Assembly: GCA_027064425.1 (NCBI GenBank)
Contig: JAMOPO010000026.1
Location: 1 to 45,941 of the forward strand
DNA from: Methanobacteriota archaeon
Lineage (GTDB): Archaea; JAADCQ01; Methanopyri; Methanopyrales; Methanopyraceae
DNA: 45,941 nucleotides
Direction of reading: 5' to 3'
Positions 9,924 through 16,108 of the stretch are shown here, piece after piece (position 1 is the stretch's first letter; each line of letters starts with the position of its first letter). The notes under the pieces were generated by a model that was given only the letters and a program-made list of their open reading frames with translations, had not been told where the DNA came from and did no database searches. A program made the translations under genes and the position numbers.

Positions 9924-9947
9924 TCCGGTTGCAAGGGGGTGCCTCCG

Positions 9948-11174
9948 TTGGGCAAGAAGGGCGGCAAGGATGACGAGCGTCACGATGACCACCACGACCA
10001 CCACGAGCGGGAGGACGACCAACCGGGCGACGACCACCACGGCGACCACGGTCAGGACCCGCAGCGGGACCACCCGGAACAGGATCTAGAGCATGACCTC
10101 CGAGACCTCGGCTCCCACAACGATCACGGGCACGATCACGACCACGGGCACGACCACGGCGAGCCCCAGCTCGACCTCGACTCGGACCACGACTCGAAGG
10201 CCGACCAGCCCGACGACGCCTCGGCCGGTCTGCCCGAGGACCCGTTCCGGGACCACGGTCGGGATCACGGCGAGGACCACGACCGGGCCCTCCACGACGC
10301 GTCGTCGGCGGGCGGGGACGACCACGGGTCTGGAGGCGACCCGGGCGACTGGCTGGACGAGCAGCTCAAGAGGTCGGGCTCGGCCGGCGACTCGTCCGGC
10401 GGTCCCGACGTGGGCTCGGACCTGCTCCAAAAGTCCGGGACCGAGGCCTCATCGTCCGGTGGAGGCTCCGGCGGGGACTCGGGGGGCGGAGACTCGGGCG
10501 GGGACGTGACGCCGGAGCCGGACGGCTCCGAGCCGCCGGAGATCGACGTGGACTGGACGAAGATCAACGTGTCCCAGGACGTCTCCGACACCGACGTGGA
10601 CATCACCAGCGTCAACGTCAGCGACAACGACGTGGACGTGGACGCCGACAGCTCGGTGAGCGTGGAGGACAACGACGTGAACGTGGTCGACTCGGACGTG
10701 AGCATCGACGCGGACGGGCCCATCGAGCTGGGTCCCAGCGACGACCCGTACCTCGTGATCGACCCGAGCGACGGGGTGCTGGAGATCAACGTGTTCGATG
10801 ACCCGATCTCGATCTCGGTCGGTGACACGGTGATCAACCAGCTGATCAGCGTCGTGAGCTGGCTGGAGGTACGGGTCGACTCCGGCGCCCTGCCCGAGGG
10901 TGTGGACCCGAGCAGCCTGCTGGACCTACTGTACCGGCTGCTGGCCTACCTGCTCGGCGTCTTCCACGAGGTCGCCCCGCTAAGCGCCATCATCGGCCTG
11001 TTCCAGCGGATCGCCGCCTACGTGCTCGAGGGAAGCCTCACGGTGTCCGTGGTGGAGCAGATCCTCCAGGTCCTGCAGACGGCGACCAGCCCGCTCACCG
11101 CCGCCCTGCAGCTGAAGACGATCCTAGCCGATGCGGGGATCTCGCTGGGCAGCCTCCTCGGCGGCCTCCTCTAA
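9948..11174 (+). CDS. His/Asp-rich modular protein of unknown function
   Basis: About 408 residues in four clear zones. Residues ~8-130 are extremely rich in His and Asp (runs such as HDDHHDHHERED and DHGHDHDHGHDHG), suitable for binding many metal ions. A Gly/Ser linker follows (~130-195, GGGSGGDSGGGDSGG). Residues ~200-285 alternate Val/Ile with Asp/Ser/Asn in short repeats (VNVSDNDVDVD, VSVEDNDVNVV), suggesting stacked beta strands. The last ~115 residues are Leu/Val/Ala-rich amphipathic or membrane-associated helices ending GSLLGGLL. There is no N-terminal signal peptide. TTG 9948 has GGGGGTG six bases upstream; GTG 9939 is the alternative. I recognise no family. Possible roles are metal storage (Ni, Co, Zn) or a surface scaffold; neither is shown. 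Confidence 0.85.
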   Translation: MGKKGGKDDERHDDHHDHHEREDDQPGDDHHGDHGQDPQRDHPEQDLEHDLRDLGSHNDHGHDHDHGHDHGEPQLDLDSDHDSKADQPDDASAGLPEDPFRDHGRDHGEDHDRALHDASSAGGDDHGSGGDPGDWLDEQLKRSGSAGDSSGGPDVGSDLLQKSGTEASSSGGGSGGDSGGGDSGGDVTPEPDGSEPPEIDVDWTKINVSQDVSDTDVDITSVNVSDNDVDVDADSSVSVEDNDVNVVDSDVSIDADGPIELGPSDDPYLVIDPSDGVLEINVFDDPISISVGDTVINQLISVVSWLEVRVDSGALPEGVDPSSLLDLLYRLLAYLLGVFHEVAPLSAIIGLFQRIAAYVLEGSLTVSVVEQILQVLQTATSPLTAALQLKTILADAGISLGSLLGGLL

Positions 11175-11307: not shown

Positions 11308-11874
11308 CTACCTCCCGTACCACCGCTCGCGCAGCCTCAAGGACAGGTACGGGCGCCAGCGCCCGAGCACACGGCCCAGCTTCCTCCTCAACCGTCCCGG
11401 CAGCTCCGACAGCACGTCCTCCAGCCCCTCCCGCGACTCCTCGAACTTCTCCCCGAACAGCAGCGCATCCTCCACGCGCAGCGCGATCGAGAACGCGAGC
11501 CCCGACGCCGACTCCTTCAGCCCCTCCTCCACCACCTCGCGCACGACGGACCGCACGGCCGACACGACCCGGCCGATCAACCGCCGGAACTCCGACTCCG
11601 AGAGCCCACGCAGCCACCGCACGAACTCGATCGCCCACTCGTTCCGGCCGAGGTAGATCGTCCGACCCCGATTGAACCGGGAGTCCCTCCTCCAACGGGC
11701 CACGTAGTACGGCCCGTACTTCTTCTTCCGACCGTTCACGCGGCGGACCCGGTACGTCCTCTCAAGGCTCGGCGGCTTGCCCCGCCGCGCGCACTCCAGC
11801 AGGATCTTCGTCAGCCGGACCTTCTCCTCGGGCTCCGGCGGGAAGAACATCCGACCCGGGTCGAACCTGGGCAC
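11308..11874 (-). CDS. Small basic protein of unknown function with a 'GPYY..RWR..IYLG' motif
   Basis: About 188 residues (180 if it starts at ATG 11850), Arg-rich. Residues ~40-80 contain KKKYGPYYVARWRRDS followed by RTIYLGRNEWAIEFVRWLRG. This resembles the short G-P-Y-Y-x-x-R-W/Y...x-Y-I/L-G motif of DUF6788-like proteins often linked to mobile or DNA-related genes; the resemblance is weak and from memory. The C-terminal half is helical and charged. A TATA-like GTTTAAAGC at 11876-11884 (minus strand) would start transcription near 11850, favouring ATG 11850, while another (TTTTTAAATC, ~11957-11968) would allow GTG 11874. It stands alone next to the phased-repeat region. Confidence 0.65.
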   Translation of the reverse strand: MPRFDPGRMFFPPEPEEKVRLTKILLECARRGKPPSLERTYRVRRVNGRKKKYGPYYVARWRRDSRFNRGRTIYLGRNEWAIEFVRWLRGLSESEFRRLIGRVVSAVRSVVREVVEEGLKESASGLAFSIALRVEDALLFGEKFEESREGLEDVLSELPGRLRRKLGRVLGRWRPYLSLRLRERWYGR

Positions 11875-11989
11875 GCTTTAAACCCCCGGACCGGTCCGTC
11901 CCCCCACGCGGCCCCACATAACGCTTGCCCTCACCCCCCACACAACGTCCGGCCCGATTTAAAAAGCCCGATGCGACTTCGACAAGAGC

Positions 11990-12300
11990 ATCTATGCATA
12001 ATCCATGCATTGAGGTCGCTGGATCGTGCGTAATCGCTCATACCCACGACGCAACCTGGGCCCCTTAACCGTGCATTTGCTGACCACTGCCTACCGACTA
12101 TCTATGCATTATCTACGTATCATCCGTGCATCCAGGCCCGGCCCCGCACAACCGCCGGCCGCGGCCCCGGGTCCGGGGTAATACTGTATGCGCATGATCT
12201 ACGTACTAACCTTCCAGGACCATGCGTAGATCGTACCTCCGCAGGGCGCACTGCATGCGCACTATCATCGCGTGCTGTACGAACGATCCGTGCAATCCGG
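11990..12300. repeat. Cluster of degenerate ATGCAT-like palindromes, partly phased at 11 bp
   Basis: ATGCAT at 11994 and 12005 (11 bp apart); GTGCAT at 12071; then ATGCAT 12104, ACGTAT 12115, GTGCAT 12126, each 11 bp apart and each preceded by TCT or TCC; ATGCGCAT at 12188; TACGTA at 12114 and 12200; ATGCGTA near 12222; GCATGC at 12253; GTGCAA near 12290. The unit can be written ATC-NRYGYAT. This spacing of one helical turn suggests cooperative protein binding on one DNA face. Confidence 0.6.
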
Positions 12301-12312: not shown

Positions 12313-12490
12313 CGGGCCGGGGGCTCCGACACGGGGGCGGATGAGCGGGCTGAACTCGGCCGAGGGTCTCGATGAGGAGGGGACCACGGGGCGACGCCCG
12401 CGGTAACCCGTCGGGATGATGATCGCTCCCGATACGGTTTCCCGCAGACTGGTGACGAGTGCGGGACCCATCTGACCCGGGGGGTTCCCC

Positions 12491-13858
12491 CTGCTCCCGC
12501 TCCCGCTCCTGGTGCTTCTTTGCCCGGCCCCGGCCGCCGCCGACGTGACCGTGGACGTGGTTCCCTACGTTGACAGCGACGCGTGGTCGAAGGAGCACGT
12601 GAAGGCGCTGGAGGACTTCCTGCGGTGGTGCGAGGAGCGCGGGATCAGGGCCGCGATCTTCCACTACAACCTCTGCGAGCGCACGGCGCCCGGGATCACC
12701 GAGGTGATCCGAGGGTTCGCGGACCGGGGCGTGCTCACGGTCGTCGGCCTGCACTCCGCCTCGCACGCGATGGGCGGGCTGCCGCTCGCGATCCAGTACT
12801 GGGAGCTCGCGGTGAACCGCGACTTTCTGGAAAAGAAAGTGGGCCGCGCGGACCCCGTGCTCTCGGTCCCGTACTGGGTCCTGGACGTGAACACGCTGCG
12901 GGCGTGCGCGATGGCGGGCGTCCGGATCCTCGTGGACGGGAACGACCCGGCGGGGATGGGGCCGGAGCCGGGCGAGTGGTCGTCGATTCCGGGGCTATCG
13001 CGGCGGCTGGTCGTGGGCCGGTGGGACGTGGACGGGGTGCGGCTGTACCGGCTGCCCGCGGTGGCGTGGTCGGACCTTTGGGAGGAGGGGTCGACGGTGG
13101 ACGAGGCCTGCAGGCGGCTTCAGCGGGCGGTGTCGGGGTTGGTGGACGGGGGCTGGTGCCGGGAGGGTCGGGTGACGGTGTGGGTCCTGGTGCACCCGTG
13201 GGAGCTGGCGCGGCGGGAGTTCCTGCGGTCGTTTGAGGAGTTCCTGGACCGGGTCCGGTCGGGGAGGCTGGACTTCGAGCACGGCGGCGTCCGGGTGCGG
13301 TTCCGGCTGGCGGACCCGAGGGAGGTGGTGGAGCGGGTGGAGGAGTACGTGGCGCGCCCGCTGCCGAGGCCGGACCTGCCGTGGATCCTGCGGGCGGAGG
13401 GGTTCCCGGATCCCGGGCGGCTGCGGGCGGAGCTGCTGAAGGAGGCGTCGGAGGGGAGGGAGGACGCGGTGAGGGGGCTGCGGGTGCTGGAGATTTGGGA
13501 GCGGTGCATGCAGATCCTGTGGGGTGTAGACGGCGAGCTGCTGGCGCTGACGCGGGCCGGGAAGGTCACCCGTAGGCTCCGGGAGCTGGTTGAGAAGGTG
13601 GTCTCAGTGATCTGGAACGACGTGGGCGTGTACTCGGCGATCCGGGAGTGGAGGGACCTCGACGCGGCCCTGACGTTCGCGCGGCGGATGCTCGCGGACG
13701 TGATGGAGCTGGCGGGGGCCGTCGAGTCGGCCTACGCGGAGTTGGTGGCGTCATCCGGGAGGAAAGGTGGGCGGCGCCCCGTGGCCGCCGTTCCGACCCC
13801 GATTCCTCGCCCGCGGTCAGGAGAGGACGAGGAGGGCGGCGACGACCTGTCCGAGTGA
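12491..13858 (+). CDS. Secreted polysaccharide deacetylase-like protein
   Basis: About 455 residues. The N-terminus, read from CTG 12491, is a hydrophobic signal peptide (LPLPLLVLLCPAPAAA, cleavage near AAA-DV). A NodB/glycoside hydrolase-deacetylase-like domain follows, suggested by VDVVPYVDSDAW, AAIFHYNLCERT, VVGLHSASHAMGG and SVPYWVLDVNTLR; the family call is tentative. The C-terminal ~190 residues are helical, with a Pro/Arg tail. The start is unclear: a TGA at 12473-12475 closes the frame, and the next candidates are CTG 12491, six bases after GGGGGG, and GTG 12512, which would cut the signal peptide. Its 3' end overlaps hypF by 42 bases on the other strand. Confidence 0.65.
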   Translation: MLPLPLLVLLCPAPAAADVTVDVVPYVDSDAWSKEHVKALEDFLRWCEERGIRAAIFHYNLCERTAPGITEVIRGFADRGVLTVVGLHSASHAMGGLPLAIQYWELAVNRDFLEKKVGRADPVLSVPYWVLDVNTLRACAMAGVRILVDGNDPAGMGPEPGEWSSIPGLSRRLVVGRWDVDGVRLYRLPAVAWSDLWEEGSTVDEACRRLQRAVSGLVDGGWCREGRVTVWVLVHPWELARREFLRSFEEFLDRVRSGRLDFEHGGVRVRFRLADPREVVERVEEYVARPLPRPDLPWILRAEGFPDPGRLRAELLKEASEGREDAVRGLRVLEIWERCMQILWGVDGELLALTRAGKVTRRLRELVEKVVSVIWNDVGVYSAIREWRDLDAALTFARRMLADVMELAGAVESAYAELVASSGRKGGRRPVAAVPTPIPRPRSGEDEEGGDDLSE

Positions 13859-16108
13859 GAGCCCGCCGTCTCCGGCCGGCACCTCGTGGTGCTCTTTGAG
13901 CCCCGGGACGCGCCGGCGGAGCTCGAGCGTGATGATCTCGTTGTTCATCACGCCGCCGGAGGCGAGCACGGGCTCGTCGTCGCGGTGCTCCTCGATGAGC
14001 CGGGCGAAGCCGCGGGCGAGGGCCAGGTGGGCGGTGAGGGCGTAGGCCCGGTTCCCGGTCTCCGCGGCGCGGGCGACGACCTCGGAGACGTCGAGCCGGT
14101 CTCCCTTCACCTCGACTTGTGGATCGGGCGCCTCCCGGACGCGGGCCGCGACGGCCTCGAGCTTCATGGCGGGCTCCCCCTCGTACGTGCGCCTGTAGCA
14201 GACGCCCAGGGCGGCGCTGACCGCGTCGAGGAAGCGCCCGGCGCTGGTGGTGTGCAGCTGGGGTCGCTCGAGCTGCGCGAGGAGCACCTCCAGCTCTCGC
14301 TCCCCGTGCTTGAGCGCGTCCGGGTGCTCGCGGAGGTGTCGCCTCAGGAGCTCTCGGATCTCCTCCGGGTCGCGGTCGGCGGCGTGCAGGTGGGCGGCGG
14401 TCATCCGCAGCGGGTGGTACGTGGCCGCGTCGCCGCCGGGCATGGGGACGGGCTCGAGGTGAGCCAGGCGCTCGTAGTCCTCGCCCTCGAGCAGGAGCAG
14501 CTCGCCTCCCCAGGCGTTTCCATCCTCGCCATACCCGTATCCGTCCATCACGAGGGCTAGGGCGGGCTCCTCGGCGGGGTTGAGCCCGTGCTCGGCGGCG
14601 CAGGCGAGGGCGTGGGCGTGGTGGTGTTGGACGCGGATCAGCTCCAGATCGTGCTCCTCGGCCCAGCGCCGGGCGAGCTGGGTGGTGGGGAAGTTGGGGT
14701 GCAGGTCGCAGGCGACGGCGTCCACGTCCTTCCAGTCGAGGCGCAGGAGTCGCATCAGGTGCTCCACGGCCCGCTGGAGGAAGTCCAGGGTCGGCGCGTG
14801 GCCGGTGTTGCCGATGTGCTGGCTGAGGTAGGCCTTGCCGCGGTGCAGGATGCAGGCGGTCACGTCCAGCTCGGGTCCCACGGCGACGATGGTGAGGTCC
14901 TCTGGAGCCCAGTCGAGCTCGATGGGCTCGGGCACGTACCCACGGGAGCGGCGTAGGGGGCGGGGCCTGCCTCCCACCACGCGGACGACGGAGTCGTCGC
15001 AGCGGGCCGCGATCCGGCGGTCGTGGACGAGGAAGTAGTCGGCGACGTCGCGGAGCCGCCGGAGGGCGTCCTCGTTCCGGATGGCCATAGGCTCGCCGGG
15101 CGGGTTGGCGGAGGTCATGACGATGGCGGGCTCGTCGAGGAACTTGCGGAACATGATGTGGTGGAGGCCGGCGTAGGGCAGCATGACGCCGATCGTGTGG
15201 AGGCCCGGTGCCACGAGGTCGGAGAGTGGAAACGGCTCGCGCTTCGGGAGCACGACGATGGGGCGGATGGGACTTCTCAGCAGCTCCTCGGCCGCCTCGT
15301 CCACGCGGGCGAAGGTGCGGACGTCCTCGAGGGAGCCGGACATGACGGCGAAGGGCTGCTGGGGACGGCCCAGCCGCTCCCGGAGGCGGCGCACCGGCTC
15401 GTCCTCCGTGGTCTTGCACGCCAGGTGGAAGCCACCGATCCCCTTGATCGCGACGATCTCGCCCTCCTCGATGGCTCGGCAGGCCTCGCGGATCGCGGCC
15501 AGCTCGTCGTCCTCGACGACCTCGCCCTCGGCGTCGAGCAGCCGGTAGCGCGGCCCGCACCTCGGGCAGCAGGCGACCTGAGCGTGGTACCGCCGGTCCT
15601 CGGGGTCCTCGTACTCGCGGCGGCACTCTCTGCACAGCGGGAAGTCGGCCATGGTGGTGTTCTCGCGGTCGTACGGGATCCCCTCGATGATCGTGAACCT
15701 GGGACCGCAGTTGGTGCAGCCGGTGAACGGGTACAGGTAGCGCCGGTTGTCGGGGTCGAAGATCTCGCGGAGGCAGTCCTCGCAGACGGGGGCGTCCGGC
15801 GGGATCTGGAGCTCGACCTCCTCGCGCTCCTCGCTCTCCTCGATGCGGAACCCGGAGCCGGGCTCGATCTCCTCCTCACAGGGCTCGATGCGGACCTCTC
15901 GGACGCGGGCCAGGGGTGGGTGCTCGCGCTGGAGTCGTCGGGCGAGCTCCTCGGCCCGCTCCCGGTCCGCTCGGACGACGATCTCGACCTCGGAGCCGAG
16001 GTTCCTGACGTACCCGTCGAGCCCCATCTCGGTGCACAGTCGGTACACGAAGGGCCGGAACCCGACGCCCTGGACGATGCCCCGGACGATCAGCCGCCAA
16101 GTGCTCAT
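13817..16108 (-). CDS. hypF: Carbamoyltransferase HypF (hydrogenase maturation)
   Basis: Makes the CN ligands of NiFe hydrogenases by activating carbamoyl phosphate and transferring carbamoyl to HypE. 763 residues with the full family layout: an acylphosphatase domain at 1-90 (GIVQGVGFRPFVYR), two CxxC...CxxC zinc fingers at ~105-185 (CEDCLREIFD, GCTNCGPRF, CRECRREYED, CCPRCGPRY), a YrdC-like domain at ~200-380 (KGIGGFHLACKTT) and a Kae1-like C-terminal domain with RVQHHHAHALACAAEHG. The ATG at 16108 overlaps the end of the upstream gene by 4 bases (ATGA). It fits the presence of hydrogenase genes such as vhuD. Confidence 0.96.
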   Translation of the reverse strand: MSTWRLIVRGIVQGVGFRPFVYRLCTEMGLDGYVRNLGSEVEIVVRADRERAEELARRLQREHPPLARVREVRIEPCEEEIEPGSGFRIEESEEREEVELQIPPDAPVCEDCLREIFDPDNRRYLYPFTGCTNCGPRFTIIEGIPYDRENTTMADFPLCRECRREYEDPEDRRYHAQVACCPRCGPRYRLLDAEGEVVEDDELAAIREACRAIEEGEIVAIKGIGGFHLACKTTEDEPVRRLRERLGRPQQPFAVMSGSLEDVRTFARVDEAAEELLRSPIRPIVVLPKREPFPLSDLVAPGLHTIGVMLPYAGLHHIMFRKFLDEPAIVMTSANPPGEPMAIRNEDALRRLRDVADYFLVHDRRIAARCDDSVVRVVGGRPRPLRRSRGYVPEPIELDWAPEDLTIVAVGPELDVTACILHRGKAYLSQHIGNTGHAPTLDFLQRAVEHLMRLLRLDWKDVDAVACDLHPNFPTTQLARRWAEEHDLELIRVQHHHAHALACAAEHGLNPAEEPALALVMDGYGYGEDGNAWGGELLLLEGEDYERLAHLEPVPMPGGDAATYHPLRMTAAHLHAADRDPEEIRELLRRHLREHPDALKHGERELEVLLAQLERPQLHTTSAGRFLDAVSAALGVCYRRTYEGEPAMKLEAVAARVREAPDPQVEVKGDRLDVSEVVARAAETGNRAYALTAHLALARGFARLIEEHRDDEPVLASGGVMNNEIITLELRRRVPGLKEHHEVPAGDGGLSLGQVVAALLVLS

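Follow-up and report, generated by a model that had tools for sequence, protein, structure and literature searches.

A helically phased array of short near-palindromic sites in Methanopyrus: a candidate assembly site for a DNA-binding protein

Introduction

Plasmid centromeres of the parC/ParR type, such as that of R1, are built from 11-bp iterons, and in parC these direct repeats are bound side by side by a small, self-repressing protein. The arm-type sites of integrases (lambda, Tn916) are 10–11-bp repeats that are read by a three-stranded-sheet domain. Archaeal origins of the ORB type have short inverted and direct sites around an A+T-rich region. In the Sulfolobales, the SegB sites of the SegAB segregation system are short, near-palindromic and dispersed in the chromosome; some adjoin the gene of their own binder, and they are tied to chromosome organization and segregation (PMC12284271).

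Here, we describe an array of short sites in the hyperthermophilic archaeon Methanopyrus and compare it with these systems. The array lies in a 45.9-kb stretch of DNA (the window), which is part of a genome assembly of 1.54 Mb in 57 contigs (G000). Methanopyrus starts, organizes and segregates its chromosome without a recognizable Orc1/Cdc6, and the arrays are conserved cis-acting candidates in these processes. They also suggest a role for the orphan protein family DUF1678, and they are short enough for direct binding tests.

Results and discussion

Units, lattice and composition of the array

Eleven copies of the motif RTYYRYGYAY are found at 11990–12295 of the window, and two of the 11 are on the minus strand. 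Lattice positions were measured at the invariant G of the motif on either strand.

11990–11999, plus strand: array unit ATCTATGCAT, lattice position 0, 10/10 match
12001–12010, plus strand: array unit ATCCATGCAT, lattice position 11, 10/10 match
12026–12035, minus strand: array unit GATTACGCAC, lattice position 33, 9/10 match; its position equals minus site 33 of the type A elements described below
12067–12076, plus strand: array unit AACCGTGCAT, lattice position 77, 9/10 match
12100–12109, plus strand: array unit ATCTATGCAT, lattice position 110, 10/10 match
12111–12120, plus strand: array unit ATCTACGTAT, lattice position 121, 10/10 match
12122–12131, plus strand: array unit ATCCGTGCAT, lattice position 132, 10/10 match
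12186–12195, plus strand: second-module unit GTATGCGCAT, position 196, phase −2, 9/10 match
12197–12206, plus strand: second-module unit ATCTACGTAC, position 207, phase −2, 10/10 match
12222–12231, minus strand: second-module unit ATCTACGCAT, position 229, phase −2, 10/10 match
12286–12295, plus strand: array unit ATCCGTGCAA, position 296, phase −1, 9/10 match

The first seven sites are exactly on an 11-bp lattice (all 0 modulo 11), and the later ones are at most 2 bp off it. The sites at 12186, 12197 and 12222 (minus) repeat the module formed by positions 0, 11 and 33 (minus), which occurs twice in the window. The first-pass annotation had named 11-bp-spaced units at 11994–12005 and 12104–12115–12126, all of which are borne out, as the sites that begin here at 11990, 12001, 12100, 12111 and 12122. 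It had also proposed degenerate units up to 12,300; the array does run to 12295, but the sites at 12026 (minus), 12067, 12186, 12197, 12222 (minus) and 12286 had been missed or called degenerate. The region was rightly described as A+T-rich, with 57.6% G+C in the array versus 68.8% in the window.

The motif is concentrated at this locus. ATCYRYGYAT has six exact copies in the window, all within the array gap, whereas 100 dinucleotide shuffles of the window average 0.4 copies and reach at most 2. Throughout the 1.54 Mb of G000, seven of the 21 matches to ATCYRYGYAY fall inside 242 bp of the array, and solely the array locus has the doublet ATCYRYGYAT-N-ATCYRYGYAT when up to two mismatches are allowed (reversed control, 0).

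Plain autocorrelation in the gap is weak, with 11 of 1000 shuffles reaching the observed value at lag 11 and 567 of 1000 reaching it at some lag. Because this naive test is not strong, independent evidence was sought, and the motif-based phase extends over a long range: none of 3000 random placements matched the window array (at any period from 8 to 14 bp) or the type A arrays, where the phase of the window itself is partly circular, the motif having been learned from the window doublets, and the lattice in types A, B and C of other genomes is not. The background is flat, as 2099 site pairs within 300 bp in a complete related genome (G002) show no preference modulo 11. The case draws its strength from the motif, its phase over long range and its conservation, and not from the lag-11 autocorrelation.

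Known elements did not account for the array, in agreement with the first-pass annotation: no Rfam family of structured RNA scored over threshold in it, and the SegB motif TCTAGASTCTAGA has no match in the window with up to three mismatches.

Setting of the array and its conservation

The array lies between the following features, which also serve to place it in other genomes.

9939–11174, plus strand: Asp-rich 411-aa ORF, synteny marker; its C-terminal part has 43–44% identity over 126–140 aa to a homologue that G001 and G002 carry to the left of the array
11308–11874, minus strand: DUF1678 gene (188 aa), candidate array-binding protein; PF07913, 1.1e-33
11958–11963, minus strand: TATA-like TTTAAA, the putative DUF1678 promoter by its sequence, 26 bp from the first array doublet
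12412–12477, plus strand: C/D-box sRNA-like sequence, which bounds the gap and is not part of the array; weak Rfam sR7 match of 16.0 bits, below the cut-off
13817–16108, minus strand: hypF by Pfam, right-hand synteny marker; 79% identity to the G002 protein

We compared four other Methanopyrus genomes, of which G001 (1.42 Mb) and G002 (1,694,969 bp) are complete and G003 and G004 are incomplete assemblies. A search of these relatives with the doublet located the array at the syntenic place in both complete genomes, and so the strain comparison called for earlier upholds its conservation. In G000, G001 and G002, a diphthamide-synthase-type ATPase gene and the Asp-rich gene lie to the left, and the C/D-box sRNA-like sequence and hypF to the right. 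The geometry 0, 11, 33 (minus) and 132 is common to the syntenic locus of all three, though the sequences no longer align. No arrays were detected in the incomplete assemblies G003 and G004.

Several further features were seen around the locus. The boxes and guide of the C/D-box sRNA-like sequence are conserved in G001, G002 and G004, and the stretch at about 12335–12400 of the window is conserved with G002 only. To the right of the gap, a 448-aa ORF (12476–13858) without a Pfam match has a signal-peptide-like start; its sole listed start codon, GTG at 12512, is inside that stretch. A small pilin-like ORF with a class-III-type signal (GQGGVEYLLLAAAI) sits beside the array in G001 and G002 (L041:6734–6988 and L042:6734–6955), with no Pfam match in those checked.

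A family of related elements

In G001 and G002, the element at this place, type A, measures about 280 bp and has sharp edges and 32–45% G+C in a genome of 60% G+C. Each of these genomes has exactly two copies. The first locus, syntenic with the window array, is at 604.5 kb in one genome and 868.5 kb in the other, and the second is at 85.8 and 389.7 kb, in the same interval from an ABCE1-like ATPase gene to a phosphoesterase gene. All four copies have seven sites at 0, 11, 33 (minus), 55 (minus), 88, 132 and 154 (minus), each a multiple of 11. The 0/11/33 (minus) module occurs once in type A, and the pair 132/154 (minus) repeats its 11/33 (minus) part. The type A sequence model matches its own reverse complement, which makes the element an imperfect palindrome. 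The possibility of a hairpin RNA in type A was considered and rejected: single-strand folding is strong (z −3.6 as DNA), but covariation is near that of shuffles, and the structure is read as DNA dyads.

Two shorter kinds of related element, type B (about 105 bp) and type C, occupy other places in the chromosome. Types A and B are related, because the type B sequence model also matches type A. Sites are at 0, 44 and 55 in type B and at 0, 11, 22, 88, 110 and 121 in type C of G002; the G001 copy of type C is partly off the lattice and has too few sites for a phase test. Judged by their flanks, G001 and G002 have orthologous loci of type A (two), type C (one) and type B (at least three). Because copies of one type are kin, the evidence counts as independent only for the window array and for types A, B and C, each taken as one unit, and even these may share ancestry. 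Sequence models of types A and B gave only a marginal match in G000, G003 and G004, at the window array, and in G000 the ABCE1-like ATPase gene is present with no further array detected in that genome.

Taken together, the sequences describe a Methanopyrus-specific dispersed family at orthologous sites, with near-palindromic units (YRYGYA core, ATC-like flank) on both strands of one 11.0-bp lattice in A+T-rich intergenic DNA.

Constraint on the sites

The two type A copies of G002 are 97% identical to each other in the core and 66–76% identical to their orthologues, a case of concerted evolution. Across the seven sites of the four type A copies, 18 of 21 fixed motif columns are invariant versus 23 of 49 degenerate ones (P 0.003), and when the frame is slid by one to five bases as a control in type A, the invariant fixed columns fall to 8–16 of 21. 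The variable degenerate columns change by transition only in 25 of 26 cases. The sites drift through transitions and retain T2, G7 and A9 of the motif; the sequence changes and its recognition class stays, as expected of protein-binding sites.

These data bear on whether the array is a decayed, functionless tandem repeat, that is, an old 11-bp satellite whose surviving units are still in register. Direct units of such a repeat would keep an 11-bp lattice without selection. However, vacant lattice positions carry no residual units, plus- and minus-strand sites follow a common lattice, the sites survive in four copies although the cores of orthologues are down to 66% identity, and the fixed motif positions are constrained. 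We consider this origin very improbable.

DUF1678 as the candidate binder

The gene next to the array encodes a member of DUF1678 (PF07913) with 117 bits versus a Pfam gathering cut-off of 25; the profile match continues past the TAG stop, which lies inside it. The family is present in five of the 81 genomes searched, all Methanopyrus, with 19 matches in G002, nine in G000 and two to three in the others. In G002, the copies are dispersed as units of ~700 bp with about 80% identity, sharp ends (one shortly before the promoter, the other at the stop codon) and unrelated surroundings; DUF1678 is an orphan gene that spreads. None was found in viral contigs, and the literature examined makes no mention of the family. 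Its conserved N-terminal part is predicted to form a helix, a three-stranded sheet and a helix, and the models are of low confidence in their C-terminal half. Comparison with the PDB by sequence and fold (Foldseek) gave no significant match to a solved structure.

The promoters of these genes are flanked by inverted repeats that differ by subfamily. Nearly all main-subfamily genes of G002 have TTGTATGG upstream and CCATACAA downstream of the TATA box, 69–125 bp apart; some copies in G000 and G004 have TTGTAA/TTACAA, and the 542/604-kb subfamily has CGCACAA/TTGTGCG. These repeats are only loosely like the array unit. They look like co-evolving autoregulatory operators, by analogy with those of autoregulated DNA-binding proteins.

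The nearest rival to an architectural role is the regulation of DUF1678. According to this explanation, the array is an operator or promoter array that serves DUF1678 autoregulation and perhaps small non-coding RNAs, and the dispersed copies would be promoters and terminators of DUF1678 genes, current or former. In the window, 26 bp separate the TATA-like box of DUF1678 from the first doublet upstream of it, type C immediately precedes a broken DUF1678 copy, and in G002 seven of nine element loci are within 1.6 kb of a DUF1678 gene (0.30 at random; rotation P 0.001). Yet type B elements sit at the 3′ ends of DUF1678 genes, the 85.8-kb copy of type A has no DUF1678 match within 100 kb, and most elements persist in G001 without an adjoining DUF1678 gene, one having a remnant. 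Type A is placed between convergent genes and adjoins no gene start. Because the syntenic arrays of G001 and G002 have convergent neighbors, a single-gene operator, as the first-pass annotation had suggested among other roles, is unlikely. At the window array, which is directly upstream of a gene, an operator role is possible. As an account of the whole family, we hold regulation of DUF1678 to be rather unlikely.

DUF1678 is the candidate binder and is not settled as such, because most G001 elements are without it and G003 and G004 have DUF1678 genes without detected arrays.

Mobility and insertions

Compared with G001, G002 has extra DNA of about 6.7 kb at 904.7–911.4 kb and about 30 kb at 1285–1314 kb, in both cases with DUF1678 genes adjoining type B. 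Type B elements may mark insertion hot spots. A cluster at 606–608 kb of G001 (L045:2741–4820) contains a type B element, a 170-bp DUF1678 remnant, a tRNA-like sequence, a ParA-like ATPase gene and an unknown gene.

The elements might instead be what is left of a small, non-autonomous, MITE-like mobile element with recombinase sites at its ends. Their sharp edges, dyads and inverted B pairs would fit such an element, as would the large insertions that adjoin B elements in G002 relative to G001. Against this, they occupy orthologous positions between species in low copy number, no associated recombinase was found, and the positions of the sites are constrained. We regard a MITE-like source as improbable.

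Tests of an origin

The array had also been proposed as an origin in a genome without Cdc6/Orc1. The best hit to a canonical Orc1/Cdc6 (TIGR02928) in G000–G002 is 23.8 bits versus a cut-off of 181.3, and the canonical gene is indeed lacking. According to PMC5333045, however, the Methanopyrales possess an orc gene, albeit a highly divergent one. GC skew is weak throughout G002, and in 40 samples of 20 kb, about half the genome, it has no extremum at 86 or 604 kb.

One or more replication origins with iteron-like sites for an unknown or divergent initiator, where the A+T-rich element is the unwinding region, would suit the low G+C and palindromic form of type A, its two copies per genome at conserved places and the missing canonical initiator. 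However, the skew does not switch at either locus, the same sites recur in the related B and C elements, which are scattered over the chromosome, and the incomplete assemblies G003 and G004 yielded no arrays. Origin function is distinctly unlikely for these elements. A unique origin is unlikely because there are several dispersed loci (two full elements and several shorter relatives round the chromosome in each complete genome) and no GC-skew switch.

Proposed function

The best explanation, which we favor tentatively, is that the array acts in cis as the place where a sequence-specific DNA-binding protein assembles, with DUF1678 as the candidate binder and a dispersed centromere-like or chromosome-organizing role. 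The lattice supports the earlier suggestion that helically phased sites load a protein cooperatively on one face of the DNA. Subunits would bind side by side along one helix face through 12–14 turns, with 11 bp between direct sites and 22 bp between facing ones, and the bound protein would form a wrapped or bridged nucleoprotein structure. With less certainty, the binder may be a dimeric protein, perhaps from the DUF1678 family, and may also regulate its own promoter, a frequent trait of centromere-binding proteins. The elements might then act as dispersed centromere-like or chromosome-organizing sites, with a logic similar to that of SegB sites in the Sulfolobales, and not as one origin or one operator.

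The pitch of the lattice deserves comment. Heat changes DNA twist by 0.0105 degrees per degree C per bp (PMC8185306), and by arithmetic from 10.5 bp per turn at 37 °C, the pitch expected at 100 °C from heat alone is about 10.7 bp. Because the lattice is 11.0 bp, the bound DNA would be slightly underwound. A broader proposal is that Methanopyrus has its own chromosome-organizing or segregation system, in which a genus-only family (DUF1678 or another) acts on dispersed arrays and the lattice records the helical pitch of bound DNA near 100 °C over up to 14 turns; we offer this with reserve, as a somewhat unlikely possibility.

A ParA-linked centromere is not supported. No ParA-like gene of G000 or G002 is beside the window array or the type A arrays, and the only one near an element is at 606 kb in G001, by type B.

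Comparison with known systems

Like SegB sites, the sites of the arrays are short, near-palindromic and dispersed in an archaeal chromosome. SegB sites differ in being mostly intragenic and not arrayed at 11 bp, and, in contrast to SegAB loci, no SegA/ParA gene adjoins the window array or the type A arrays. The arrays resemble ORB-type origins in having short sites in both inverted and direct orientation about an A+T-rich region, but they occur at several dispersed loci, with no ORB identified, no canonical Orc1/Cdc6 and no skew switch. The likeness to integrase arm-type sites lies in the short repeats of 10–11 bp and their reading by a three-stranded-sheet domain, since a sheet of that order is predicted for DUF1678; however, DUF1678 has no recognized recombinase domain, and Foldseek gave no significant match. 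The parC/ParR system of R1 shares the 11-bp direct repeats, and as in parC-type iterons, tandem sites are in helical phase for a putative small DNA-binding protein. The Methanopyrus arrays differ from parC in being chromosomal and dispersed, with sites on both strands and gaps of whole turns. In summary, phased iteron arrays are of a known kind, and the array described here is a genus-specific variant of it, with an unusually exact long-range phase and sites on both strands.
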